A stretch of DNA of 64,000 nt, taken from contig NZ_JBBIAB010000010.1 in the NCBI RefSeq assembly GCF_039634785.1, positions 62,001 to 126,000 on the forward strand, written 5' to 3'. Below, one piece after another: positions 17,016 through 28,884 of this stretch. The DNA is from Tistrella mobilis. GTDB taxonomy: Bacteria > Pseudomonadota > Alphaproteobacteria > Tistrellales > Tistrellaceae. The notes under the pieces were generated by a model. It worked only from the letters and a program-made list of their open reading frames with translations, made no database searches and was not told the origin of the DNA. Positions within the stretch are counted from its first letter, which is position 1; each line of letters opens with the position of its first letter. Both the position numbers and the translations under genes were made by a program.

Positions 17016-17882
17016 TCAGCTGGCGAGGAAGTCCTCGATCAGCTGCAACTGGTCGGGAACGTTCAGAGCCGGAGCATGCCCGCAGCCGGGAATGACCGCA
17101 AGTCTCGCCTTGGGCCCGCGGCGGGTCATTTCTTCGGCCGTATCCTGAGTCAGCAGGTCACTGGTCTCGCCGCGCATGACCAAGGTCTTGGCATGAATAG
17201 CATCCCAGGCATCCCACATCTCGAAATCGTCTGTCGTCTCTGCAAAAACGCGCATGACGGCAGGGTCATAATGCACGGTCACCTTGCCGTCATCGCGGCG
17301 GCGGGTGGAGGTTTCGGCCATCTGCCGCCACTGGGCATCGGTGATCGCGCCATAGGGGGCGTAGATGGTGCGCAGATAGGCCTCCAGCTCCAGCACCGTG
17401 TCGAAAACCGGCGGCTGGGTGACGTAAGACCGGATCCGGCCGACCGCCACCGGCGACAATGCCGGGCCGATATCGTTCAGAACCAGATGGGTGATCCGGT
17501 CCCGCAGCGGGCCTGCGGCCAGCACCATGCCGATGGCACCGCCCATCGAGGTGCCCACCCAGCGCATCCGCTCGATGCCCAGCCGGTCGAGCAGCTCCAC
17601 CGCGATATCGGCATAATGCTCCAGCCGGTACTCGGCATCGGGGGCCTTTGACCACGACGACAGGCCGCGGCCGATGGTATCGGGGGCCACGATGCGGTAG
17701 CGATCGGCGAAATACGCCGCGCAGGGGTCGAAATCTCGGCCGGTCCGGGCTAGGCCGTGCCACATCACCACCGGTTCCGACCGGTCCTTCGACCAGTGCA
17801 TCAGGTGGATTTCATGACCGCAGGCGGTCAGGAATTCTGAGGTTGGATTCGGGGTCGAGGTGGGATCGGGGGTGGAGGTCAT
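17016..17882 (-). CDS. Alpha/beta-hydrolase, last gene of the Liv-type ABC operon
   Basis: A 288-residue alpha/beta hydrolase. It shows VVMWHGLARTGRDFDP, the nucleophile motif VGTSMGGAIG, an acidic residue after LVMRGETSDLL and the histidine in PGCGHAPALN. The N-terminus is a short Thr/Pro/Ser repeat (TPDPTSTPNPTS) before the domain. It starts three bases after the stop of the Liv-type permease gene and precedes a strong terminator, so it is co-transcribed with the transporter. By position it probably hydrolyses the imported compound or a product (ester, lactone or oligomer). The substrate is unknown. Confidence 0.9.
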   Translation of the reverse strand: MTSTPDPTSTPNPTSEFLTACGHEIHLMHWSKDRSEPVVMWHGLARTGRDFDPCAAYFADRYRIVAPDTIGRGLSSWSKAPDAEYRLEHYADIAVELLDRLGIERMRWVGTSMGGAIGMVLAAGPLRDRITHLVLNDIGPALSPVAVGRIRSYVTQPPVFDTVLELEAYLRTIYAPYGAITDAQWRQMAETSTRRRDDGKVTVHYDPAVMRVFAETTDDFEMWDAWDAIHAKTLVMRGETSDLLTQDTAEEMTRRGPKARLAVIPGCGHAPALNVPDQLQLIEDFLAS

Positions 17883-17885
17883 GGA

Positions 17886-18941
17886 TCAGCGTTCCCTGAG
17901 TTTGCCGACGATGCCGGTGGGGAAGAAGTAGACCGAGAGCACGAACAGGATGCCCAGCCACAGCATCCAGCGGTCGGCGGCGATCAGCTCGGGCAGGATC
18001 GGGATGCCGGCCAGCGCCTCGGAGGCCGTGCCCATCAGGTCCTGAAGATAGAACTGCGCCAGGCTGAGGATCACCACGCCGATCACCGCACCATAAAGCG
18101 TCCCCATGCCGCCGATCACGACCATCAGCAGCACGTCGAGCATGATCGCGAAAGAGAGCGTCGCGTCGGGCCCGGTATAGCGCAGCCAGAGCGCGTTCAG
18201 CACCCCGGCAAGCGCCGCCAGCGCCGCCACCAGGCACGAGGCGGCCGTGCGGTAGATCACCACGCGGTTGCCGAGCGCCTCGGCCCGGAAGTCGTTCTCG
18301 CGGATGGCCTGAAGCACCCGGCCGAAGGGTGAGTTGACCACGCGCAGCATGAACAGGAACAGCAGCAGAGAGACCAGGAAGACCAGGTAATAGGCAATGA
18401 TGCGGCCGTTGATCTTCTGGCCCAGCACCTCGCCGTCGACCAGCTTGAAGGCCGGGCTCAGCAGCCGCGGGATGCTGAACGACATGCCGTCCTCGCCGCC
18501 GGTCAGCCACGAGAGCTGCGACGCCAGGATCAGGAAGAAGCTCGCCACGGCAAGCGTGATCATGCTGAAGAAGATCGCCCTCACCCTGAGCGACAGCAGG
18601 CCGATCACCGCCGCCACCACGATCGAGAGCAGCACGCCCGCAACCGTGCCGAGGCCCACCGCCCCCCAGCTCGGGCCCAGCGCATTCAGCGAGATCGCGA
18701 CCCCATAGGCGCCGATGCCGAAGAACATGGTGTGGGCAAAGGAGACGATGCCGGTATAGCCGAGCAGGATATCGTACGAGGCGACCAGCACGATCAGCAC
18801 GCAGATGCGCGCCGCAACCGCAAGCGAGCGGGTGCCGGGGAAGACGAAGGGGGCGAAGGCGAGACCCAGCAGCACGACCAGCAGAACGATGGTCAGGATG
18901 CGGCTGCGCGGATGATCGCCGGAGATGATCCAGTTGAGCAT
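17886..18941 (-). CDS. Branched-chain amino acid-type ABC transporter permease (LivM family)
   Basis: 351 residues, about nine membrane helices. It shows the LivM-type sequence YDILLGYTGIVSFAHTMFFGIGAYG and the ABC-coupling loop near LQAIRENDFRAEALG. It pairs with the LivH-type permease to form the channel. It lies 17 bases after livH-type gene and three before the hydrolase. Start ATG 18941 begins MLNWIISGDHPRSR. The frame is open further upstream, but that region is the permease gene in another frame. Confidence 0.93.
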   Translation of the reverse strand: MLNWIISGDHPRSRILTIVLLVVLLGLAFAPFVFPGTRSLAVAARICVLIVLVASYDILLGYTGIVSFAHTMFFGIGAYGVAISLNALGPSWGAVGLGTVAGVLLSIVVAAVIGLLSLRVRAIFFSMITLAVASFFLILASQLSWLTGGEDGMSFSIPRLLSPAFKLVDGEVLGQKINGRIIAYYLVFLVSLLLFLFMLRVVNSPFGRVLQAIRENDFRAEALGNRVVIYRTAASCLVAALAALAGVLNALWLRYTGPDATLSFAIMLDVLLMVVIGGMGTLYGAVIGVVILSLAQFYLQDLMGTASEALAGIPILPELIAADRWMLWLGILFVLSVYFFPTGIVGKLRER

Positions 18942-18958
18942 GGCTGTTGTTCTCCGGC

Positions 18959-19966
18959 TCAGTTCTTCGTCGTGGGATAAAGCCCGCGGGGTCGCCAGAG
19001 CAGCACCGCCACCATCAGCAGGATGTTGGAGCCGAGCGCCAGCGTCGGGGCCAGATAGCCCATGAAATTGGCGGTCAGCCCCACCAGCAGGGCGCCGAGG
19101 AAGCAGCCGCCCACCGAGCCCAGCCCGCCGATGATCACCACGATGAACACCAGGATCATGACGTCCGCGCCGATATGGACGGTCACCAGCTCCTGATAGA
19201 GCGCCCACATCACGCCGCCCGAGGCCGCAAGTGCCGTGCCGGCCACGAAGACGCCGACGAACAGCCGACGCACCTTGTAGCCCAGCGCCTCGACCATCTC
19301 GCGGTTCTCGACGCCCGCGCGGACCAGCAGGCCGATGCGGGTGCGGTTGAGCGCGAAATGCATGCCGACATAGGCGACGAGGCCCAGCACGCAGGCGACC
19401 AGCCGGTAGCGCTCGACCGCGATGTCGCCAAAGAAGATCGAGCCGCGCAGGGTTTCAGGCTTGGGCAGCGGGATCGGATCCGGGCCCCAGATCACCGTGA
19501 TCAGCTGTTCGGCGACGATCAGCCCGCCGACCGTGATCAGGATCTGGCGCAGATGCGCGCCATAGACCCGGCGCACGATGATCCGCTCGAAAGCGAGGCC
19601 CAGAATGCCGGCCACCACGCAGGCGACCAGGATCGAGAGCAGCATCGCCCCCACATCCCCCAGCAGAGAGATGCCGAGCATGTCGTGGAAGGGGCCGCCC
19701 GGCGCCAGCAGCCCGGTCGCCAGATAGGCACCGACGGCCACAAAAGCCCCATGGGCGAAATTCAGCACATCCATCAGGCCGAAAACCAGGGTGAGCCCCG
19801 AGGCCATCAGGAAGATCATCATGCCCATGGCGAGGCCGGCGACCGCCAGCACCATCCAGGTGCCGGGATCGATGGCGATGAGCGGCAGGAACAGGATCAG
19901 GCCGGCGATCGCGAGCGGGGCATGCCGCTCGACCAGTCCGGCGGTCTTGAGGGCGCGCGCGGTCAT
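18959..19966 (-). CDS. Branched-chain amino acid-type ABC transporter permease (LivH family)
   Basis: 335 residues with 8-9 hydrophobic segments. The family motifs GLTLVFGLMDVLNFAHGAF and GLGSVGGCFLGALLVG, and the C-terminal LWRPRGLYP, are present. It forms the translocation pore with the LivM-type partner in the inner membrane. Its ATG overlaps the stop of the LivF-type gene (ATGA), indicating translational coupling. Confidence 0.94.
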   Translation of the reverse strand: MTARALKTAGLVERHAPLAIAGLILFLPLIAIDPGTWMVLAVAGLAMGMMIFLMASGLTLVFGLMDVLNFAHGAFVAVGAYLATGLLAPGGPFHDMLGISLLGDVGAMLLSILVACVVAGILGLAFERIIVRRVYGAHLRQILITVGGLIVAEQLITVIWGPDPIPLPKPETLRGSIFFGDIAVERYRLVACVLGLVAYVGMHFALNRTRIGLLVRAGVENREMVEALGYKVRRLFVGVFVAGTALAASGGVMWALYQELVTVHIGADVMILVFIVVIIGGLGSVGGCFLGALLVGLTANFMGYLAPTLALGSNILLMVAVLLWRPRGLYPTTKN

Positions 19967-20688
19967 TGATGAGCGTCCAGGCTGAGGCCGAGCAGGCGGC
20001 GCTGAAGATCTCCGTCATGGGCGAGTTCGTGCATCGAACCCGCATGGACGACGCGGCCGTCATCCATCACTGCCACCGTGTCACCGAGTGCGGTCGCCAT
20101 ACTGAAATTCTGTTCGACCATCAGAATGGTCGTGTGGGTCGATTTGAGCTCGCGGAAGGCCTGGATCAGATGACCGATGATCGCCGGCGCCAGCCCCTTG
20201 GACGGCTCGTCCACGATCAGCAGCTCCCGCGGCTCCACGATCGCCCGGGCGATGGCCAGCATCTGCTTCTGACCGCCCGACAGATTGCCGGCCGGCCAGT
20301 TCCAGAACTTCTCAAGGGCCGGAAACAGCTCGTAGATCCAGGCGAGGCGCTTCTGGTCCATGGGCCCCGACCGGGCGGCGAGCACCATGTTCTCGCGCAC
20401 CGTCAACCCGGCGAAGATGCCCATATCCTCGGGCACATAGGCGATGCCGGCCGCGGCGAGGTCGGCGGTATGGGCCCTGGTGATGTCGCGCCCGTCGAAG
20501 GTGATCTGCCCCTGCGAGGCCTGCCAGAGGCCCATGATCGTGCGCAGCGTGGTGGTCTTGCCGGCACCGTTGCGGCCGAGCAGCATGGTCAGCCCGCCGC
20601 GCGGCACCACCAGATCCACCCCCTGAAGGATGTGATACTGGCCGATATGGGTGTGCACGCCGGCAAGGGTGAGCAGGGCATCAGACAT
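19963..20688 (-). CDS. ABC transporter ATP-binding protein (LivF family)
   Basis: A 241-residue ATPase: Walker A GRNGAGKTT, signature LSGGQKQMLAIARA, Walker B LLIVDEPSKGLAP, H-loop MVEQN. The LivF-type motif GIAYVPEDMGIFAGLTV is present. It energises uptake as a heterodimer with the LivG-type protein. Start ATG 20688 overlaps the end of the upstream ATPase gene by 8 bases. Confidence 0.95.
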   Translation of the reverse strand: MSDALLTLAGVHTHIGQYHILQGVDLVVPRGGLTMLLGRNGAGKTTTLRTIMGLWQASQGQITFDGRDITRAHTADLAAAGIAYVPEDMGIFAGLTVRENMVLAARSGPMDQKRLAWIYELFPALEKFWNWPAGNLSGGQKQMLAIARAIVEPRELLIVDEPSKGLAPAIIGHLIQAFRELKSTHTTILMVEQNFSMATALGDTVAVMDDGRVVHAGSMHELAHDGDLQRRLLGLSLDAHQ

Positions 20689-21478
20689 GTGTGGCGGCCC
20701 CCATGCCCAGATAGGCTTCCTGCACGATCGGCGAGGCGACCACCTCTCGCGGGTCGCCATCGGCGACCAGATAGCCGTTGTGCAGCACGATGATCCGGTC
20801 GGCCAGCGAATGGACCACGTCCATCTTGTGCTCCACCAGCAGCACGGTCTTGGCCGGATCGGCCTTGATCTCGTGGATCAGGTCCAGGATAACCGGCACC
20901 TCGTCGACGCTCATGCCCGCGGTCGGCTCGTCGAACATGAAGATCGAGGGCTCGAGCGCGATCAGGATCGCCACCTCCAGCTTGCGCTGGTCGCCATGCG
21001 GCAGGGTTGCGACCACATCCTCGCCGCGCGCCGCCAGGCGCACCCGCTCCAGGATCTCGTCGGCCCGCTCGATCAGATGCCGGCCATGGGCGGCCATCGA
21101 GAAGATGTCGAAGCCGCGGCCGCGGCGGGCCTGCACCGCCAGGCGCACATTCTCGCGCACCGTGAGGTTGGGAAACAGGTTGGTCAGCTGGAAAGCGCGG
21201 CCGATGCCGCGCCGGGTACGCCCGGCCGCGCCATGCGAGGACAGGTCGTGGCCGTCCAGCAGCACCTCGCCCGCCGTCGCCTTCAGCTGGCCGGAAATCA
21301 GGTTGAAATAGGTGGTCTTGCCGGCGCCGTTGGGGCCGACGATCGCGGTCAGCGTGCCGCGGTCGAACCGGCAGCTGACGCCGTTCACGGCGACGTGGCC
21401 GCCGAAGCGCACGGTGAGGTCGCGGGTTTCGAGCGCCGGCCTGGCGCCGCCCTGGCCCGCGGCGGATGAAGCGGTCAT
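20681..21478 (-). CDS. ABC transporter ATP-binding protein (LivG family)
   Basis: A 265-residue ATPase with Walker A GPNGAGKTTYFNLISG, the LivG-specific GIGRAFQLTNLFPNLTVRENV, and Walker B FMFDEPTAGMSVDE. The ABC signature region reads LPHGDQRKLEVAI, lacking the canonical LSGGQ, as is common in LivG proteins. It follows the binding-protein gene after a 238-bp gap holding a strong hairpin. Start ATG 21478 (MTASSAAG) is chosen; an upstream ATG would add an unconserved extension. Confidence 0.93.
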   Translation of the reverse strand: MTASSAAGQGGARPALETRDLTVRFGGHVAVNGVSCRFDRGTLTAIVGPNGAGKTTYFNLISGQLKATAGEVLLDGHDLSSHGAAGRTRRGIGRAFQLTNLFPNLTVRENVRLAVQARRGRGFDIFSMAAHGRHLIERADEILERVRLAARGEDVVATLPHGDQRKLEVAILIALEPSIFMFDEPTAGMSVDEVPVILDLIHEIKADPAKTVLLVEHKMDVVHSLADRIIVLHNGYLVADGDPREVVASPIVQEAYLGMGAATHV

Positions 21479-21559
21479 GCCGTGTCCGTGGATGCCTGCG
21501 CCGCAGATGGCGGCGTCTGGTATGGGAAGCAACTGGTATGGGCAGCCGTGAGGGTTCTG

Positions 21560-21608
21560 CCGCCGCAGCCGGGCGACCGGGGTTCATGGACCACCCGGGC
21601 TGCGGCGG
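21560..21608 (-). other. Strong intercistronic hairpin between binding-protein and ATPase genes
   Basis: CCGCCGCAGCC (21560-21570) and its perfect complement (21598-21608) form an 11-bp stem, extendable by GGG/CCC across one bulged base. There is no following T run on either strand. It lies within the Liv-type operon after the gene expected to be needed in greatest amount. Such stem-loops are known to stabilise upstream mRNA or partly stop transcription (as in malE-malF). Confidence 0.7.
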
Positions 21609-21716
21609 AGGACCCGTGTGCAACGGCGGCGGGGGAAGAGAGGCCCGCACCCGGGGGAGGCATGCAGAACCGCCCCGCCCCGTCACACACGATCACGGGA
21701 TCAGCACCCGCTCCGG

Positions 21717-22913
21717 TCAGCGCTTGTTGCGCACCGGCACATTCATTTCGTCGATACCGATGACGCGCACCAGCTCGGGGATGCCCCAGGCGACGTTGTC
21801 GTCGACCTTGATCTTGAAGTGGTACATCTCCTGAAGCGCCTGATGGTCTTCCTTGCGGAAGATCATCTTGCCCTTGGGCGACATGAACTCCATGCCTTCC
21901 ATGGCCTTGATCAGGTCTTCGGTCTCGGTGGAACCGGCCTTGCGGATGGCCTCGACCGCGGCGATGCCGGCCGACATGCCACCGGCGGTGAAGAAGTCCG
22001 GCGGCGTGCCGAAACGCTTCTGATGCTCGGTCACCAGCCAGTCGTTCACCGGGTTCTTCGGAATGTCGTAATAGTAATAGGTGGCCCCCTCCATGCCCGG
22101 CAGCGCCTTGTAGGCGGCCATGGCCGGCAGGATGTTGCCGCCGGTCGCGATCTTGATGCCGCGCCGCTCGGGCTCCATCGCCGCCAGCTTGGCAAAGGGC
22201 GTGGAGGCGCCGGCCCAGATCACGAACAGCACCTTGTCGCCCTGCACGCCGTCGAGCGCGTCGAAGATGCGCTGCGCCGGGGCGGTGAAGTCGGTGGTGT
22301 CGCGCGGGACATATTCCTCGTGGACGATCTCGGCACCGGTCGAGGCAAGCGCCTCGCGGAAGGCGGCGACGCCGTCACGGCCGAAGGCGTAATCCTGGGC
22401 CAGCGTCGCGATTTTGACACCCGGCTTGCCCAGCGCCACGGCGTTCGAAATGGCATCCTGCGACGAATTGCGGCCGGTCCGGAAGATGTAGCGGTTCCAC
22501 TTGTCGCCGGTGATCGAATCCGCCACCGCCGGCTCGACCAGCAGGATCTTCTCGTATTCCTGGGCCACCGGCAGCATCGCCAGCGCGTCGCCCGAAGAGG
22601 TGGGACCGATGGCGAGGTCGACCTCGTCGTCGCCATAGGCTTCCGCCAGCACCGCGCGGGCGATTTCCGGCTTCAGCTGGGTGTCCTTCTCGATGACCTC
22701 GATCTTGCGGCCGTCGAGTTCCATCGTGCCCTGGGTCGCATATTCCAGGCCCATCATCAGACCGGTATGGGTCTGCTTGGCATAGGCCTCCAGCGGGCCG
22801 GTCTTGCCCGAGATCAGCGCGATCCTGATCGGATCGGCCGCCATCGCGGGTGCCGTGCCGATCGCCGCCGCCGTCGCTGCCGCGACGGCCAGGCGCTTCC
22901 AGTTGAGCGACAT
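21717..22913 (-). CDS. Periplasmic substrate-binding protein of Liv-type ABC transporter
   Basis: 398 residues with a Sec signal peptide (hydrophobic AAATAAAIGTAPAMA, cleavage near AMA-ADP). The mature part is a type I periplasmic binding protein starting IRIALISGKTGPLEAYAKQ. It differs clearly from the leucine-binding LivJ type: there is no paired disulfide near the N-terminus, and the ligand loop SSGDALAM is distinct. The ligand is unlikely to be simply leucine and is not determinable here. GGGAGG lies nine bases before ATG. It is the first gene of the operon, 80 bp downstream of a sigma-54 promoter. Confidence 0.94.
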   Translation of the reverse strand: MSLNWKRLAVAAATAAAIGTAPAMAADPIRIALISGKTGPLEAYAKQTHTGLMMGLEYATQGTMELDGRKIEVIEKDTQLKPEIARAVLAEAYGDDEVDLAIGPTSSGDALAMLPVAQEYEKILLVEPAVADSITGDKWNRYIFRTGRNSSQDAISNAVALGKPGVKIATLAQDYAFGRDGVAAFREALASTGAEIVHEEYVPRDTTDFTAPAQRIFDALDGVQGDKVLFVIWAGASTPFAKLAAMEPERRGIKIATGGNILPAMAAYKALPGMEGATYYYYDIPKNPVNDWLVTEHQKRFGTPPDFFTAGGMSAGIAAVEAIRKAGSTETEDLIKAMEGMEFMSPKGKMIFRKEDHQALQEMYHFKIKVDDNVAWGIPELVRVIGIDEMNVPVRNKR

Positions 22914-22992
22914 TGGGGTCAGCCTCCCTACCCTGTTCTTGGTGCCCTGACGGCTGCGCTACGCTCCCGGCGCAACCGTTTCGGGATAGAAA

Positions 22993-23009
22993 CAGCAAGG
23001 GGCATGCCA
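22993..23009 (-). promoter_or_regulatory. Sigma-54 promoter of the Liv-type operon
   Basis: On the minus strand, TGGCATGCCCCTTGCTG matches the TGGCAYR-N4-TTGCW consensus at every defined position. The -24 GG is at 23008-23007 and the -12 GC at 22996-22995. The transcript should start near 22984, about 70 bases before the binding-protein ATG. Confidence 0.9.
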
Positions 23010-23075
23010 CTTATACGACATGTTCAGAAAGCAAGCACTTACCGCAACGCAACAGAAGATGCGGCACCGCATCCT

Positions 23076-23091
23076 GTCCGGCTTTCCGGAC
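23076..23091. promoter_or_regulatory. Activator-binding palindrome A (GTCCGG-N4-CCGGAC)
   Basis: GTCCGG-CTTT-CCGGAC, a perfect 16-bp palindrome with a 4-bp centre. It is the nearest of three copies to the sigma-54 promoter, about 70 bp upstream of -24. Probably bound by the Fis-type domain of the activator encoded next door. Confidence 0.75.
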
Positions 23092-23099
23092 GCCGGAAC

Positions 23100-23115
23100 G
23101 TCCGGTCTGCCGGAC
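23100..23115. promoter_or_regulatory. Activator-binding palindrome B (GTCCGG-N4-CCGGAC)
   Basis: GTCCGG-TCTG-CCGGAC. It has the same half-sites and spacing as palindrome A, starting 24 bp further upstream of the promoter; the centre differs, so only the half-sites are conserved. Confidence 0.75.
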
Positions 23116-23127
23116 ACCTCGCCCTCT

Positions 23128-23143
23128 GTCCGGAATTCCGGAC
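23128..23143. promoter_or_regulatory. Activator-binding palindrome C (GTCCGG-N4-CCGGAC)
   Basis: GTCCGG-AATT-CCGGAC, fully palindromic including the centre. It begins 28 bp beyond palindrome B and ends 4 bp from the activator gene's stop codon. Confidence 0.75.
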
Positions 23144-23146
23144 GGG

Positions 23147-24679
23147 TCAGCCGCGGGTTCCCGGCAGCCCGGCCTCGATGCCGTGGGTCGCGAGTTTTTC
23201 GTAGAATTGTGCCCGGGAAATTCCCAGCAGTTTCGCTGCCTGGGTCTTCACCCCGCCCGCCGCGGCCAAAGCCCGGCGGATGGCATCGCGTTCGGCCGCC
23301 GCCAGCGCCTCGCGCAGCGGTTCCACGGTCTCGGCGGCACAGGCCGGCCCGTCCGTCGCCACCGGGTCGGCCCCCATCACCGGATCGGCCCCCACCACCG
23401 GATCGGCCACCGTCGTGCCGGGCTGCCCGGCGGCGATCAGCCCGTCCAGATGGCCGGCATCGATCTCGGCCTCGTCGGTCAGCAGCGCCGCCCGTTCCAG
23501 CAGATTGGCAAGCTCGCGCACATTGCCCGGCCAGTCATGGCGCTGCAGCCGGGCGACCGCCCGATCGGTCAGCCGCCGGGGCCGGCCGCCCTGTTCGATC
23601 GCCAGACGTTCCAGCAGGGCATCCGCCAGCGGCTCGATATCGTCCAGCCGCTCGCGCAGCGGCGGCAGGCGCAGCGGCAATACGTTCAGGCGATAATAAA
23701 GGTCGGCGCGGAACCGGCCGTCCTCGACCATCCGGCCCAGATCGCGGCTGGTGGCCGCAATCACCCGCACATCCACCGGGATCACGCGATTGGAGCCGAG
23801 CGGCTCGACCTCGCGTTCCTGCAACACCCTGAGCAGCTTGGATTGCAGGCTGAGCGGCATGTCGCCGATCTCGTCCAGGAACAGCGTGCCACCATGGGCG
23901 AGCCGGATCTTGCCGTCGCGCGGCTTGTTGCCGGCACCGGTATAGGCGCCGGGTGCCACGCCGAACAGCTCCGCCTCCAGCAGGTTTTCGGGAATGGCGG
24001 CGGTGTTCACCCGCACCATCGGCCCGGCCTGCCGCTCGCTCGCCGCATGCAGCGCATGGGCCAGCATCTCCTTGCCGGTGCCGGTCTCGCCCAGCAGCAG
24101 CACGGTGATGTCACGCTCGGCCGCCCGGCGGGCCTGGCGCTTCAGCAGCCGTACCGCCTCGGAATTGCCGATGAACTGTGAAAAGCCGTATTTGGCCCGG
24201 CGGGCATCGGCCAGCTGGCGGCGGGCGGCTTCCAGATCGCGCTGCATCCCCTGAAACTTGTCGACCAGCGGCTTCAGCGACTGCACCCGGTCGTAGAGGA
24301 TCATGCCCACCGCGCCCGAGACCCGGCCATCCTCGTCCTTCAGCGGGATGCGGCTGACCACCAGCTGGCGGCCTTCGACTTCGAAAATATCGATCAGATC
24401 CGCGCGGCCGCTGGCCACCACCTCGCGCAGCCGGCTGTTGGGAATGATGTCCTCGACCGGTCGCCCTTCCACGGGGTCCATGCCGTTCCAGCCCAGGATC
24501 GCGCGGTATTTGTCGTTCATCCAGAGCACGGTGCCGGCGGCATCGATCAGCACGGCGCCTTCATAGAGCTGGTCGAACAGCTCCACCGCCGCACGCGCGA
24601 CCCGGTCCCTGAGGCCCGCCTCGCGCGCGGCCGCGGCCCGGCGCCGGCGCGCCGCCACGCTGTCGATCAGCCGCTCCAT
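23147..24679 (-). CDS. Sigma-54-dependent transcriptional activator (PAS / AAA+ / Fis-type HTH)
   Basis: About 510 residues. An N-terminal helical stretch is followed by a PAS domain (residues ~35-130, GAVLIDAAGTVLWMNDKY), a linker, then the AAA+ core. The core has Walker A GETGTGKEM, the sigma-54 contact loop as GAYTGA (Tyr for the usual Phe), Walker B GTLFLDEIGDM and WPGNVREL. It ends in a Fis-type HTH (GGVKTQAAKLLGISRAQFYEKL). No receiver domain is present, so the PAS domain or a bound ligand is the sensor. ATG 24679 is chosen; ATG 24715 is in frame upstream. The three palindromes and sigma-54 promoter immediately downstream identify its likely target. Confidence 0.95.
   Translation of the reverse strand: MERLIDSVAARRRRAAAAREAGLRDRVARAAVELFDQLYEGAVLIDAAGTVLWMNDKYRAILGWNGMDPVEGRPVEDIIPNSRLREVVASGRADLIDIFEVEGRQLVVSRIPLKDEDGRVSGAVGMILYDRVQSLKPLVDKFQGMQRDLEAARRQLADARRAKYGFSQFIGNSEAVRLLKRQARRAAERDITVLLLGETGTGKEMLAHALHAASERQAGPMVRVNTAAIPENLLEAELFGVAPGAYTGAGNKPRDGKIRLAHGGTLFLDEIGDMPLSLQSKLLRVLQEREVEPLGSNRVIPVDVRVIAATSRDLGRMVEDGRFRADLYYRLNVLPLRLPPLRERLDDIEPLADALLERLAIEQGGRPRRLTDRAVARLQRHDWPGNVRELANLLERAALLTDEAEIDAGHLDGLIAAGQPGTTVADPVVGADPVMGADPVATDGPACAAETVEPLREALAAAERDAIRRALAAAGGVKTQAAKLLGISRAQFYEKLATHGIEAGLPGTRG
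23364..23410. repeat. 18-bp tandem repeat inside the activator gene
   Basis: About 2.6 copies of an 18-bp unit (23364-23381, 23382-23399, then a partial). It encodes an ADPVVG/ADPVMG/ADPVAT hexapeptide repeat in the flexible linker between the AAA+ core and the DNA-binding domain. The frame is kept. Confidence 0.8.
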
Positions 24680-24791
24680 CCAGCCTGCATCTCCCCCCTG
24701 CCGGCACCTGGCCATTATGGACGGCCATCGCCCGCCGGAACCCTGGTGCCAAGCCTAGGCGCGCGTTACGGGCGATGCAAGCCGCAGCCCG

Positions 24792-25727
24792 TCACCCCCC
24801 TGCCGCCCGGCGCACCGCCCGGGCGAGTGCGGCCGGCACCGCGCTCATATGGCCTTCATCCGGCACCACCAGCAGGTCGATCCGCCCGGCTTCGCCCTCA
24901 AGCTTCGTCAGCCGGTCGTGCATGTCGCGCACGCCGTCGACCATGCGCGCCATGCGCCGGAAGGCGATCCGGTCCGGCGCGTCACCGGGTTCCGCCGCCT
25001 GTTCCGCCCCGCCGACCGTCAGCGTCAGATCCAGAACCGGCCGGTCGGCGCGGGCGGCGAAGGCAGCCTCCTCTGCCAGCACCTCCCGATCATTCCACCA
25101 GATCGACGGGCTGGACGCCACCCAGCGGGTGAAGGCGTCCGGCCGGGTGAAGGCGGCGTGCAGCACGAAACGGCCGCCCAGCGAGTGGCCGAACAGGGTT
25201 GCCGCGTCGTCGTTCACCGGAAAGCGCCGGGCGACCTCGGGTCGGATCTCGTTCAGGATCAGGTCGAGAAAGGCTTCGTCGCCACCGGTCGGCACTTTCG
25301 GTGCCCGATTGCCCATCATCGCCCGGCCTTCGGGCGTCACGGCGGAGGTCAGGTTCAGATAGCGCCGGGCCATGTCGAAGCCGACGACCCCCGGATAGCC
25401 GATCGCCGCCACCACGATCGGCCGGTCGGCCGTCAACAGCGCCGCAACGGTACCGGCCACACCGAAGAAGGCATTGCCGTCCAGCACATAGAGCACCGGG
25501 AACCCGCCCGGCGGCGGGGTGACCGGCGGCACCGACACATCCACCCGATAGGTCAGGCCGTTGCGCGCCGCCGTCAGGTCGAAGGCGTGCAGGCCCGGCG
25601 CCACCGGTACGGCATCCGCCACACCGGGCGCCCCCGCTGCCCTGGCGGGCAGCAGCGTCCCCGACAGCGCGAAGGCCAGAACGAAAGCGGCGGCAAAGGG
25701 CATCAGCGGGCGCAGCACGACGGGCAT
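24792..25727 (-). CDS. Secreted esterase, IroE/esterase D-like alpha/beta-hydrolase
   Basis: About 311 residues with an N-terminal signal peptide (MPFAAAFVLAFALSG, cleavage near ARA-AGAP). The exported domain has FPVLYVLDGNAFFG, the nucleophile motif LFGHSLGGRF (Ser) and the catalytic His in PDEGHMSAVP. This layout is that of periplasmic ferri-siderophore esterases (IroE/BesA type) and related serine esterases. Siderophore hydrolysis is a family guess; no iron-uptake genes are nearby. ATG 25727 was chosen to give a normal signal peptide; ATG 25787 is in frame upstream. Confidence 0.85.
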   Translation of the reverse strand: MPVVLRPLMPFAAAFVLAFALSGTLLPARAAGAPGVADAVPVAPGLHAFDLTAARNGLTYRVDVSVPPVTPPPGGFPVLYVLDGNAFFGVAGTVAALLTADRPIVVAAIGYPGVVGFDMARRYLNLTSAVTPEGRAMMGNRAPKVPTGGDEAFLDLILNEIRPEVARRFPVNDDAATLFGHSLGGRFVLHAAFTRPDAFTRWVASSPSIWWNDREVLAEEAAFAARADRPVLDLTLTVGGAEQAAEPGDAPDRIAFRRMARMVDGVRDMHDRLTKLEGEAGRIDLLVVPDEGHMSAVPAALARAVRRAAGG

Positions 25728-25802
25728 CTCCAGCAGGTCGATCCGGGCGCCCATGGGACCGCAACTTGGATTGCGACGCAATCTCATTGAACGACATGCC
25801 GG

Positions 25803-27452
25803 TCAATACGGATCGGCACCGCCGATGGTGATCTCCAGAACAGCCGGCCGCCCTGCCCCGAGCAACCCTGGCAGGCCGTCCCGGATTGCGGCCACGGTAT
25901 CGGCACGGAGATGTGCCACCCCCATCGACGCCGCCAGCTGATCGAAGGCGATGGCGGGATCGTCCAGAACCATGCCGACGGCATGCCCTGCCGCAGCACT
26001 CTCCAGCCCCATCCCCGTCGCCGTCCGCATCAGAATGTCGTAGCGCCGGTTGTTCAGGATCACGAAGATCACCGGCAGCCGCAGCCGGGCAGCCGTCCAC
26101 AGCGCCTGCGGCGCATACATGGCACCGCCATCACCCGTCATGCACAGCACCGGCCGGCCGGTTGCGAGTGCGACGCCCGCAGCCGCCGGCATGCCCCAGC
26201 CCAGCCCGGCGCTGGCGACGAAATCATGCCGGTCGCCGATGCCGCCCTGCCAGAGCCGGCGCAGCCCCTCGATCAGGGCCGAGGCCTCGTTGACCACGGT
26301 CACGCCCCGCGGGACCGCCTTCAGCACCGCATCGGCGGCGATCATCGGATGCAGCGGCAGCCGGTCGCGGAGCCTGTCGAGCCGGGCCGTGAAGCCGGCA
26401 TCGGCGACCGCCTTCTCCGCCCGCCGCCGCATGGTGACGGCGGCGACGCCCGGCCGCGCCACGACCGCGGAGAGTGCGGCAAGGCCTGCCGCCGGATCGC
26501 CGCCGACCACCAGATCGGCCGCGACGTCGAGCCCGGGCGCCGCCGGATCGCGGGCCAGCTGAATGACCCGCATCCCCTGCGGCAGGGCGGGTCCGGGCCG
26601 GTAGTGATAGGGCCTGATTGCCCCCTCCCCCGCCAGCACCGCCAGCCGTGCGTCGCCGAGGATTGAGCGGATCTCCGCCAGATCGGGCGGCAGCACACCA
26701 CGCCAGCCCGGGTGATCGGTGGGGAAAAGATGGGCGCGCGGCACCGGGGTCGCAAAGACCCGGCAGCCCGTGGCATCGGCAAAGGCGATCGCCGCCCTCA
26801 TCCCCTGCGGCCCGGCCAGCGTGTCCGACACCAGAAGCACCAGATCATCGGCCTCCGCACCTGCGATCATCGACGCCGCGGCATCGATGTCACCCGCAGC
26901 CGGGGCCGGCGCGGGAATACGCGGCGGTGGCGGGTCGGCGGCGGCAAGCGTCAGATCGACCGGCAGCGACAGAAAGACCGGCCCCGGCGGCCAGGCCCGG
27001 GCCAGCGCAAAGGCCCGGCGCAGCACCTGGCCGGCATCCTCGGGCCGGGTCAGTTCATGGGCATGCTTCACCACCGGCCGGGCAATGCCCACCAGATCAT
27101 CGGCCAGCCAGGGCGCGCGGATCAGATGCCGGCTGTCCTGCTGGCCGGCGATGACCACCAGCGGCGTGCGCATGCGCGCCGCCCCGATCATCGCCCCCAT
27201 GGCATGGCCAAGCCCGGAAGCGGTGTGGAGATGGGCGACCCCCACCCTGCCGGCGGCATGGGCATAGCCGTCGGCCATGGCGACGGCGACCGCCTCCTGA
27301 AGCGCCGGCACATAGCTGAGCCCGGGTGCGCGGGCGATGGCATCGAGCAGAGGCAGTTCGGTGGAGCCCGGATTGCCGAAGACGTGGGTGACGCCCTCAT
27401 CCTCCAGCACCGCCGCGATCATCCGCGCGACCGACCTCTGCCCGTCCCCCAT
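25803..27452 (-). CDS. Thiamine-diphosphate enzyme, benzoylformate decarboxylase-like
   Basis: 549 residues in three domains. The N-terminal PYR domain has FGNPGSTELPLLDA and the catalytic glutamate in ALQEAVAVAMADGYA. The central domain follows LSLPVDL. The C-terminal PP domain carries the ThDP motif from CMTGDGGAMY to ILNN. The pattern is closest to benzoylformate decarboxylase / acetolactate-synthase-like enzymes, so a 2-oxo acid decarboxylase or carboligase is likely. There is no mandelate-pathway partner beside it. Start ATG 27452 has AGGGG upstream. It lies 75 bases before the esterase gene and may share a transcript. Confidence 0.88.
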   Translation of the reverse strand: MGDGQRSVARMIAAVLEDEGVTHVFGNPGSTELPLLDAIARAPGLSYVPALQEAVAVAMADGYAHAAGRVGVAHLHTASGLGHAMGAMIGAARMRTPLVVIAGQQDSRHLIRAPWLADDLVGIARPVVKHAHELTRPEDAGQVLRRAFALARAWPPGPVFLSLPVDLTLAAADPPPPRIPAPAPAAGDIDAAASMIAGAEADDLVLLVSDTLAGPQGMRAAIAFADATGCRVFATPVPRAHLFPTDHPGWRGVLPPDLAEIRSILGDARLAVLAGEGAIRPYHYRPGPALPQGMRVIQLARDPAAPGLDVAADLVVGGDPAAGLAALSAVVARPGVAAVTMRRRAEKAVADAGFTARLDRLRDRLPLHPMIAADAVLKAVPRGVTVVNEASALIEGLRRLWQGGIGDRHDFVASAGLGWGMPAAAGVALATGRPVLCMTGDGGAMYAPQALWTAARLRLPVIFVILNNRRYDILMRTATGMGLESAAAGHAVGMVLDDPAIAFDQLAASMGVAHLRADTVAAIRDGLPGLLGAGRPAVLEITIGGADPY

Positions 27453-27584
27453 ATCGTCTCGCCCCTGCCGCTTCGTATCCGCATGATGATCGCGCATGGC
27501 GCACATCATTCTGCCGACAGTCGCGGCATCGCTTCAAGACGGCAGACGGCAGGGGCGGTTGACGATGTCTCGGGGTCCCCCTCG

Positions 27585-28790
27585 TCAGGCGGCGCCGAGG
27601 ATGGCCTCATCGGTCACGCCGAACAGTTCGTAGCGGATGTTCGCGGGCGCGACCCCGGCCGCGATCAGGTGCCGGGCCTGCGCCTTCTGGAACGCCCGGG
27701 GCCCGCACATATAGACGTCGATCTCGCGATCGGGCAGCAGCCCGGCGATGCGTTCCGCGTCGAAACGGCCGACCGAATGATGGGTCACGCCGACGCGGTC
27801 CGATGCGCCCGGGCGCTCATAGGCGATGTGCAGATCCAGGCCGGGCGTCGCCTCGGCCAGCGCGCGCAGATGGGCCCCGAAGGCATGGGTTTCGCCGTCG
27901 ATCGCCGCATGGGCCCAGATCACCGGATGGTCCGGCCGCGTCGCCGCCAGGGTTTCCACCATAGCGAGCAGCGGCGTCTGGCCGACACCGGCACCCAGCA
28001 GCAGGATCGGCCGTGGCGTCTCCGTATCCAGGAAGAAGTCGCCCGCCGGCGGCGCCACCTCCAGCACCGCGCCGGGGCGGATCGTGTCGTGCAGCAGGCC
28101 CGAGCCGCGGCCTTCGGGTTCACGCTTCACCGCGATCCGCCAGCGGCCGTTGGCGGCACGTCCGGCCAGGCTGTAATGGCGCAGCAGCTGGGTGCCGTCA
28201 GGCCGGGTCAGGCGCAGGGTCAGATACTGGCCGGGGGCGAAATCCGGCAGTGCCTCCCCATCCTCGGGCGCCAGCAGGAAGCTCTTGATCACGCGGCTTT
28301 CCTCGGTGACCGCCTCGACCACGAAGCGGCGGAAACCGCGCCAGCCGCCCGGCCGTGCCGCGACCTCGCCGGCGAGCGCCGCCTCGCGATCGATGAACAC
28401 CTTGGCGAGCAGACCATAGGCCTCGCCCCAGGCCGCCAGGATCGGCGGCGTCGCCGCATCGCCCAGCACGTCCGAAATCGCGGCCAGCAGATTGGCCCCC
28501 ACCACGTCGTACTGCTCGGGCCGGACCTGGACGGCGACATGCTTGTGGGCGATGCGCTCCACCGCACCTGCCAGCGCGGCCAGATTGTCGATGTGCTCGG
28601 CATAGGCCAGCACGGCCGCCGCCAGCGCCCGCGGCTGCGACCCGTCGCGCTGATGCGCCGGATCAAACATCGCCGCGATCTCGGGGGCGGCCAGCAGGCG
28701 CTCGTAGAACCGGGTGGTGATGGCCTCGCCATGGGTGCGCAGCACGGGCACCGTTGCCTTGACGAGGGTAATGGTCGCGTCGCTCAACAT
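27585..28790 (-). CDS. hmp: Flavohemoglobin, nitric oxide dioxygenase
   Basis: 401 residues, the full flavohemoglobin length. An N-terminal globin carries the proximal heme His in RIAHKHVAVQVRPEQY. It is joined to an FAD domain (RHYSLAG, the RxYS motif) and an NAD(P) domain (GAGVGQTPLLAM, MCGPRAFQ). It converts NO + O2 + NAD(P)H to nitrate in the cytoplasm. ATG 28790 has GGAGAG upstream. It is divergent from the glycan cluster; a 9-bp inverted repeat at 28885-28914 may be its operator. Confidence 0.96.
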   Translation of the reverse strand: MLSDATITLVKATVPVLRTHGEAITTRFYERLLAAPEIAAMFDPAHQRDGSQPRALAAAVLAYAEHIDNLAALAGAVERIAHKHVAVQVRPEQYDVVGANLLAAISDVLGDAATPPILAAWGEAYGLLAKVFIDREAALAGEVAARPGGWRGFRRFVVEAVTEESRVIKSFLLAPEDGEALPDFAPGQYLTLRLTRPDGTQLLRHYSLAGRAANGRWRIAVKREPEGRGSGLLHDTIRPGAVLEVAPPAGDFFLDTETPRPILLLGAGVGQTPLLAMVETLAATRPDHPVIWAHAAIDGETHAFGAHLRALAEATPGLDLHIAYERPGASDRVGVTHHSVGRFDAERIAGLLPDREIDVYMCGPRAFQKAQARHLIAAGVAPANIRYELFGVTDEAILGAA

Positions 28791-28884
28791 GCGGAACTCT
28801 CCGGAACCTTCAACTCTGGCTTGGGTCCGGTGCATGGGCCGGATCCCGCAGGGCCGCCCTCCCGGACAAAAAGCTGTATATCAG

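Follow-up and report, generated by a model that had tools for sequence, protein, structure and literature searches.

Among the systems that have been described so far, the nearest counterpart to the one presented here is HbcR of Pseudomonas (PA2005). This protein is described as a sigma-54 activator for (R)-3-hydroxybutyrate (PMC10482368, PMC13390443), the compound by which it is activated in Pseudomonas fluorescens (PMC10482368), and its N-terminal PAS domain is placed at residues 17-123 of PA2005 (PMC8694187). The system that we compare with it lies in a window of 64,000 nucleotides from the α-proteobacterium Tistrella mobilis (assembly GCF_039634785.1, contig NZ_JBBIAB010000010.1, positions 62,001 to 126,000) and consists of an activator gene, three palindromic dyads, a promoter of the -24/-12 type, and an operon for a Liv-type ATP-binding cassette (ABC) importer plus a hydrolase. 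Like HbcR, the activator is a sigma-54 activator with an N-terminal PAS domain, and relatives in its clade adjoin genes for 3-hydroxybutyrate dehydrogenase and CoA-transferase. Unlike HbcR, which regulates the catabolism of (R)-3-hydroxybutyrate, it would have the ABC operon with its hydrolase as target. This likeness is one of domains, descriptions, and gene company, and from the gene company we infer an HbcR-like switch that would respond to 3-hydroxybutyrate or its oligomers.

The circuit itself is of an ordinary, known kind; what is new is the candidate assignment of a 3-hydroxybutyrate-type ligand to it. That activator, dyads, promoter, and operon together form a conserved sigma-54 switch appears highly probable from the comparisons reported below, whereas the whole statement, in which the same switch serves the uptake of 3-hydroxybutyrate-type compounds, is only reasonably probable, because of the 3-hydroxybutyrate assignment. 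Two other groups of systems help to place the locus. The transporter hbtABC is of the tripartite ATP-independent periplasmic (TRAP) class; its cargo would be shared with the Tistrella importer, which is of the ABC class instead, and the DctP genes found behind some activators of the clade resemble it by class. As with the enhancer sites of NifA and NtrC, the dyads stand upstream of a -24/-12 promoter, but the site of NifA is TGT-N10-ACA and the operator in the window is TGT-N12-ACA. Among the records listed by searches of the open-licence literature, we found no description of this circuit or its operator, nor of any 3-hydroxybutyrate importer of the ABC class.

Activator, dyads, and promoter in Tistrella

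The activator gene occupies positions 23147-24679 on the reverse strand, with an alternative start at 24715. Its reading as a PAS/AAA+/Fis activator with a GAYTGA variant of the GAFTGA loop, proposed in an earlier sequence-only reading of this DNA, agrees with both the translation and the Pfam domains: the sigma-54-interaction AAA+ domain is matched by PF00158 (E 8e-68), the PAS and AAA+ lid domains are also matched, and the C-terminal Fis-type helix-turn-helix is matched by PF02954 (E 6.2e-12). By layout and domains, the protein would be a one-component, PAS-sensing enhancer-binding protein of sigma-54, and a PAS sensor makes a small molecule the probable signal.

Past the activator gene follow three exact copies of GTCCGG-N4-CCGGAC, the only ones in the window and all where the sequence-only reading had located them. 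The most distal, GTCCGGAATTCCGGAC, lies at 23128-23143, 3 bp past the activator stop codon; the second lies 28 bp from it, at 23100-23115; and the promoter-proximal one is at 23076-23091. Their centers are 128, 100, and 76 bp, respectively, upstream of the -24 GG, within the distance of 70-135 bp that had been claimed. The promoter TGGCATGCCCCTTGCT, at 22994-23009 on the reverse strand, was found by pattern search and has like elements in relatives; in keeping with its description as a consensus element, it alone in the window fits TGGCAYG-N4-TTGCW exactly, and allowing one mismatch gives two matches versus 1.24 in shuffled sequence. Relaxing the dyad pattern to two mismatches gives 13 matches in the window versus a shuffle mean of 10.8, i.e., no excess. 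Measured against the motif of the family, TGTCYGG-N4-CCRGACA, each of the three dyads has one mismatch, at an outermost base.

The genome, of 6.16 Mb and with one rpoN-type (sigma-54) gene, contains seven exact dyads, three of them within these 68 bp, while the backward pattern occurs three times. Neither relaxed pattern alone is telling genome-wide when set beside its backward control: 72 near-dyad places (up to two mismatches) versus 50, and 34 promoter-like places versus 37. Among the places inspected, which comprised 16 of the 72 near-dyads (L001-L004 and L099-L113, which overlap, three being the window's own) and 30 of the 34 promoter-like sites, an exact promoter joined to close dyads was encountered in the window only, and none of the other near-dyads inspected had a promoter-like site within 500 bp. 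At the 29 other promoters, dyads within 500 bp appeared at two mismatches in L140 and at three mismatches in L127, L131, L132, and L134. The earlier characterization of the circuit as self-contained fits these inspected places.

Conservation of the switch among relatives

Relatives of the activator were gathered from 41, 385, 30, and 369 genomes (partly overlapping sets) and from plasmids. After removal of near-identical rows, the phylogenetic tree separates a clade of 41 rows, including the Tistrella protein, from 26 paralogues with branch support of 100/100; in the four genomes that were searched deeply, clade members have E values of 2.6e-136 or better versus 1.4e-85 for the best paralogue. 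The GA[FY]TG motif is present in 40 of the 41 rows, the exception being L158. We counted dyads in a region of at most 520 bp around the stop codon of the activator, allowing up to two mismatches to the family motif and using dinucleotide shuffles as control: the 41 loci contain 36 of them versus 0.31 expected, on which ground chance was rejected as an explanation. A -24/-12 element with at most one mismatch, within 260 bp of the activator stop, follows the activator in 27 of the 41 loci (0.67 expected).

The same association emerges from the side of the transporter. For the best 80 of 377 public loci of the binding protein, dyads were sought in the 450-bp stretch that precedes the gene, and a clade activator was considered adjacent when no more than 700 bp upstream. 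Seven of the nine loci with an adjacent activator have a dyad, versus none of the other 71, in 13 of which a clade activator lies farther off with other genes between. The corresponding Fisher p of 1.1e-8 overstates independence, since the loci share ancestry and T. mobilis itself accounts for one of the seven; another strain, T. mobilis KA081020-065, has the same locus, with the binding protein 99.7% and the activator 99.4% identical. Conservation of the palindromes in relatives, upstream of the same transporter, was the test to which the sequence-only reading had exposed itself, and these counts bear it out.

A more detailed geometry is visible in an inner group of seven loci (support 100/99), which includes the window, L008, L013 from Terasakiella, L069, L070 from Oceanibacterium, L087, and L091. 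Each has two or three dyads, the distal ones being exactly 28 bp apart in six of the seven, whereas in L013 the middle dyad falls below the cut; the distance from the start of the last dyad to the promoter ranges from 69 to 113 bp, and the third lies 24 bp from the second in the window versus 55 to 72 bp in five other loci. Taken together, the 20 sites of this group carry their information in the half-sites around an AT-rich center, with 0.32 bits or less in the six flanking bases on each side. The recognition helix of the activator reads SRAQ(F/L)YEKL in all seven rows and varies in rows with other sites, for example SRSVLYDKL in L164 with TGTCCTGA sites; that this variation tracks the type of dyad is suggestive only. 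In the Oceanibacterium locus a further dyad, TGTCCGGAAATCTGGACA, lies 1603 bp before the activator stop and thus some 100 bp ahead of the gene itself, a hint of possible autoregulation, and one more is found inside the activator gene.

Could the dyads be RNA hairpins that end or protect the activator transcript, instead of sites for a protein? As RNA, the stretch does fold strongly (-46.5 kcal/mol, z -4.86), but it shows no terminator-like site at the dyads and no Rfam match; moreover, in L008, L069, L070, L087, L091, and L013 at least one dyad has its start still inside the activator reading frame, and the 28-bp spacing is common to six of the seven inner loci, with the promoter behind. We consider such hairpins very improbable. 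For the protein sites, the observed parts, geometry, conservation, clade, and gene company suggest the following sequence of events. Dimers of the activator would bind the three TGTCYGG-N4-CCRGACA dyads, the pair 28 bp apart and the promoter-proximal one, and assemble there on sensing their ligand; the GAYTGA loop would then remodel the sigma-54 RNA polymerase at the -24/-12 promoter, thereby turning on the genes for the binding protein, the ABC subunits, and the hydrolase. The operator motif may also help to locate similar switches elsewhere among proteobacteria.

The transporter operon and its candidate cargo

All genes of the operon lie on the reverse strand, beginning with that of a periplasmic substrate-binding protein of the Peripla_BP_6 family (21717-22913). 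Two ABC ATPases follow, of LivG type (20681-21478, starting at the ATG at 21478) and LivF type (19963-20688, ATG at 20688), then two BPD_transp_2 permeases, of LivH type (18959-19966) and LivM type (17886-19208, with a provisional start; no family matches the initial ~95 residues), and last an alpha/beta hydrolase (17016-17882), which holds the same place in some relatives. Profile matches thus confirm the families of the five-gene ABC system plus hydrolase that had been recognized downstream of the promoter, and by family the subunit set of a Liv-type (HAAT) importer is complete. The operon is taken to end at the hydrolase because the gene that comes next, for a DEAD-box helicase, is coded on the other strand. 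In the 238-bp gap between the genes of the binding protein and the first ATPase there is a strong GC-rich hairpin (~21540-21612; region 21520-21630, -54 kcal/mol, z -3.3), which may keep the messenger of the binding protein above that of the rest of the operon.

Given these subunit families, the locus might be taken for an ordinary importer of branched-chain amino acids under a local sigma-54 activator. Against the Liv models, however, the operon proteins score far below the curated cut-offs (60.4/477, 182.4/362, 168.9/441, 60.9/379, and 62.6/366 bits), scores to the urea models are also below theirs, and the gene company of the activator clade points elsewhere; we therefore give this explanation little credence. 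The closest solved relatives of the binding protein are PDB 3n0x and 3nnd, presumably from Rhodopseudomonas palustris, which match closely over 373 residues (E 1.2e-181); a literature search on these two structures found no paper on function or ligand. A relative of solved structure but unassigned function (3n0x), together with the defined operator and a probable inducer, makes both the uptake and the DNA specificity of the activator directly testable.

What, then, does the importer carry? One clue comes from a Mariluticola plasmid (L168), in which activator, 3-hydroxybutyrate dehydrogenase (369.8 bits, over the curated cut-off), binding protein, ATPases, permeases, and alpha/beta hydrolase stand in one row, with one dyad at two mismatches and a promoter at one mismatch. 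Behind the clade activator of L009 there is again a 3-hydroxybutyrate dehydrogenase (386.5 bits, cut-off 307), followed by an ABC ATPase, while L160 has an acetoacetyl-CoA reductase scoring over its cut-off, and L092 and L152 have a CoA-transferase. In Bradyrhizobium (L039, L061, and L063) a CoA-transferase is placed between activator and binding protein; the neighbor cluster of this enzyme spans 11 loci, its identity resting on L039. Neighbor clusters, which included opposite-strand shadow open reading frames, were used for this cluster and for the gene order of L089 only, the others having been read at the level of their translations. This last locus, from Cupriavidus pinatubonensis, has an operon closed, after the permeases, by a full-length hydrolase of 3-hydroxybutyrate oligomers (1062.9 bits), and the start of another such enzyme (PF10605, 5.5e-43) follows a short-chain dehydrogenase/reductase behind the clade activator of L150. 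The transporters in this company are of different kinds: Liv-type binding proteins (e.g., L161), DctP binding proteins of TRAP type (L093, L158, L159, and L164), and a symporter of the major facilitator superfamily (MFS; L153) all have genes behind clade activators, as if the regulator had been kept and the class of transporter swapped. Next to L097 and L154 the translation had suggested a permease resembling GntP, which was not counted because it had no Pfam match.

Hence, (R)-3-hydroxybutyrate, or else a short-chain acid close to it, would most likely be both the signal and either the cargo or what hydrolysis of the cargo yields; the operon would import the monomer or short ester oligomers, and the hydrolase would cut the oligomers. 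A more specific version of this proposal, which we advance tentatively, is that Tistrella has an ABC importer for 3-hydroxybutyrate oligomers released by the extracellular breakdown of polyhydroxybutyrate (PHB), combined with its own cytoplasmic oligomer-cutting hydrolase, an HbcR-like activator, and a three-dyad enhancer made of the 28-bp pair and the proximal site, within a clade of activators that would be coupled to at least three classes of transporter (ABC, TRAP, and MFS) for the same nutrient.

Several observations weigh against this interpretation, some of them concerning the switch and others its ligand. At least one dyad is present in 19 of the 41 clade loci and absent, at up to two mismatches, in 22. 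The available DNA of 58 of the 80 binding-protein loci (15 of these with less than 6 kb upstream) contains no clade activator, and of 30 of the 80 genomes that were checked whole, 15 have none at E ≤1e-110; the transporter therefore often obeys other regulators. In one paper, the PAS domain of HbcR/PA2005 is assigned, from conserved residues, to the binding of the autoinducer DPO (PMC8694187), which would speak against a direct sensor of 3-hydroxybutyrate. By Pfam, the Tistrella operon has neither a dehydrogenase nor a CoA-transferase gene, and its hydrolase matches no model of 3-hydroxybutyrate-oligomer hydrolases: it is a generic alpha/beta hydrolase whose best solved matches are unassigned hydrolases, chains of PHB depolymerase being among the weaker ones (2.4e-12). 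No dyad or promoter of the type was found close to the genome's own 3-hydroxybutyrate dehydrogenase gene (C19). In L150, the dehydrogenase/reductase scores as a FabG protein instead of a 3-hydroxybutyrate dehydrogenase, and the gene upstream in L089 is of TetR type. Finally, relatives of the binding protein that are encoded on plasmids have neighbor genes for enoyl-CoA hydratase, acyl-CoA ligase, or acyl-CoA dehydrogenase, which fit other short-chain acids.

These last neighbors lend substance to a different account, in which the same circuit serves another short-chain acid, such as crotonate, acetoacetate, a branched hydroxy acid, or an ester of one of them, the 3-hydroxybutyrate company reflecting an ancestral or sister specificity. 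Plasmid relatives without the activator adjoin genes for an AMP-binding ligase, enoyl-CoA hydratase, a MaoC-type protein, and phosphate acetyltransferase, another plasmid relative adjoins ligase and hydratase, and a more distant one hydratase, thiolase, and acyl-CoA dehydrogenases; the lack of dehydrogenase and CoA-transferase in Tistrella also agrees with it. Conversely, the 3-hydroxybutyrate dehydrogenase inside the Mariluticola operon and the oligomer hydrolase closing that of L089 are at odds with such an account, which we deem rather unlikely.

A few features around the activator deserve mention. On a plasmid of Azospirillum ramasamyi (L166) a Liv-type ABC operon is followed downstream by a clade activator and then by an IclR gene; neither a dyad nor a -24/-12 element was found in the region of this activator. 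In the window, upstream of the activator and on the same strand, genes for an esterase and for a thiamine-pyrophosphate enzyme resembling benzoylformate decarboxylase extend over 24792-27509. The window also contains, at 27585-28835, a flavohemoglobin-like gene with globin, FAD, and NAD domains.

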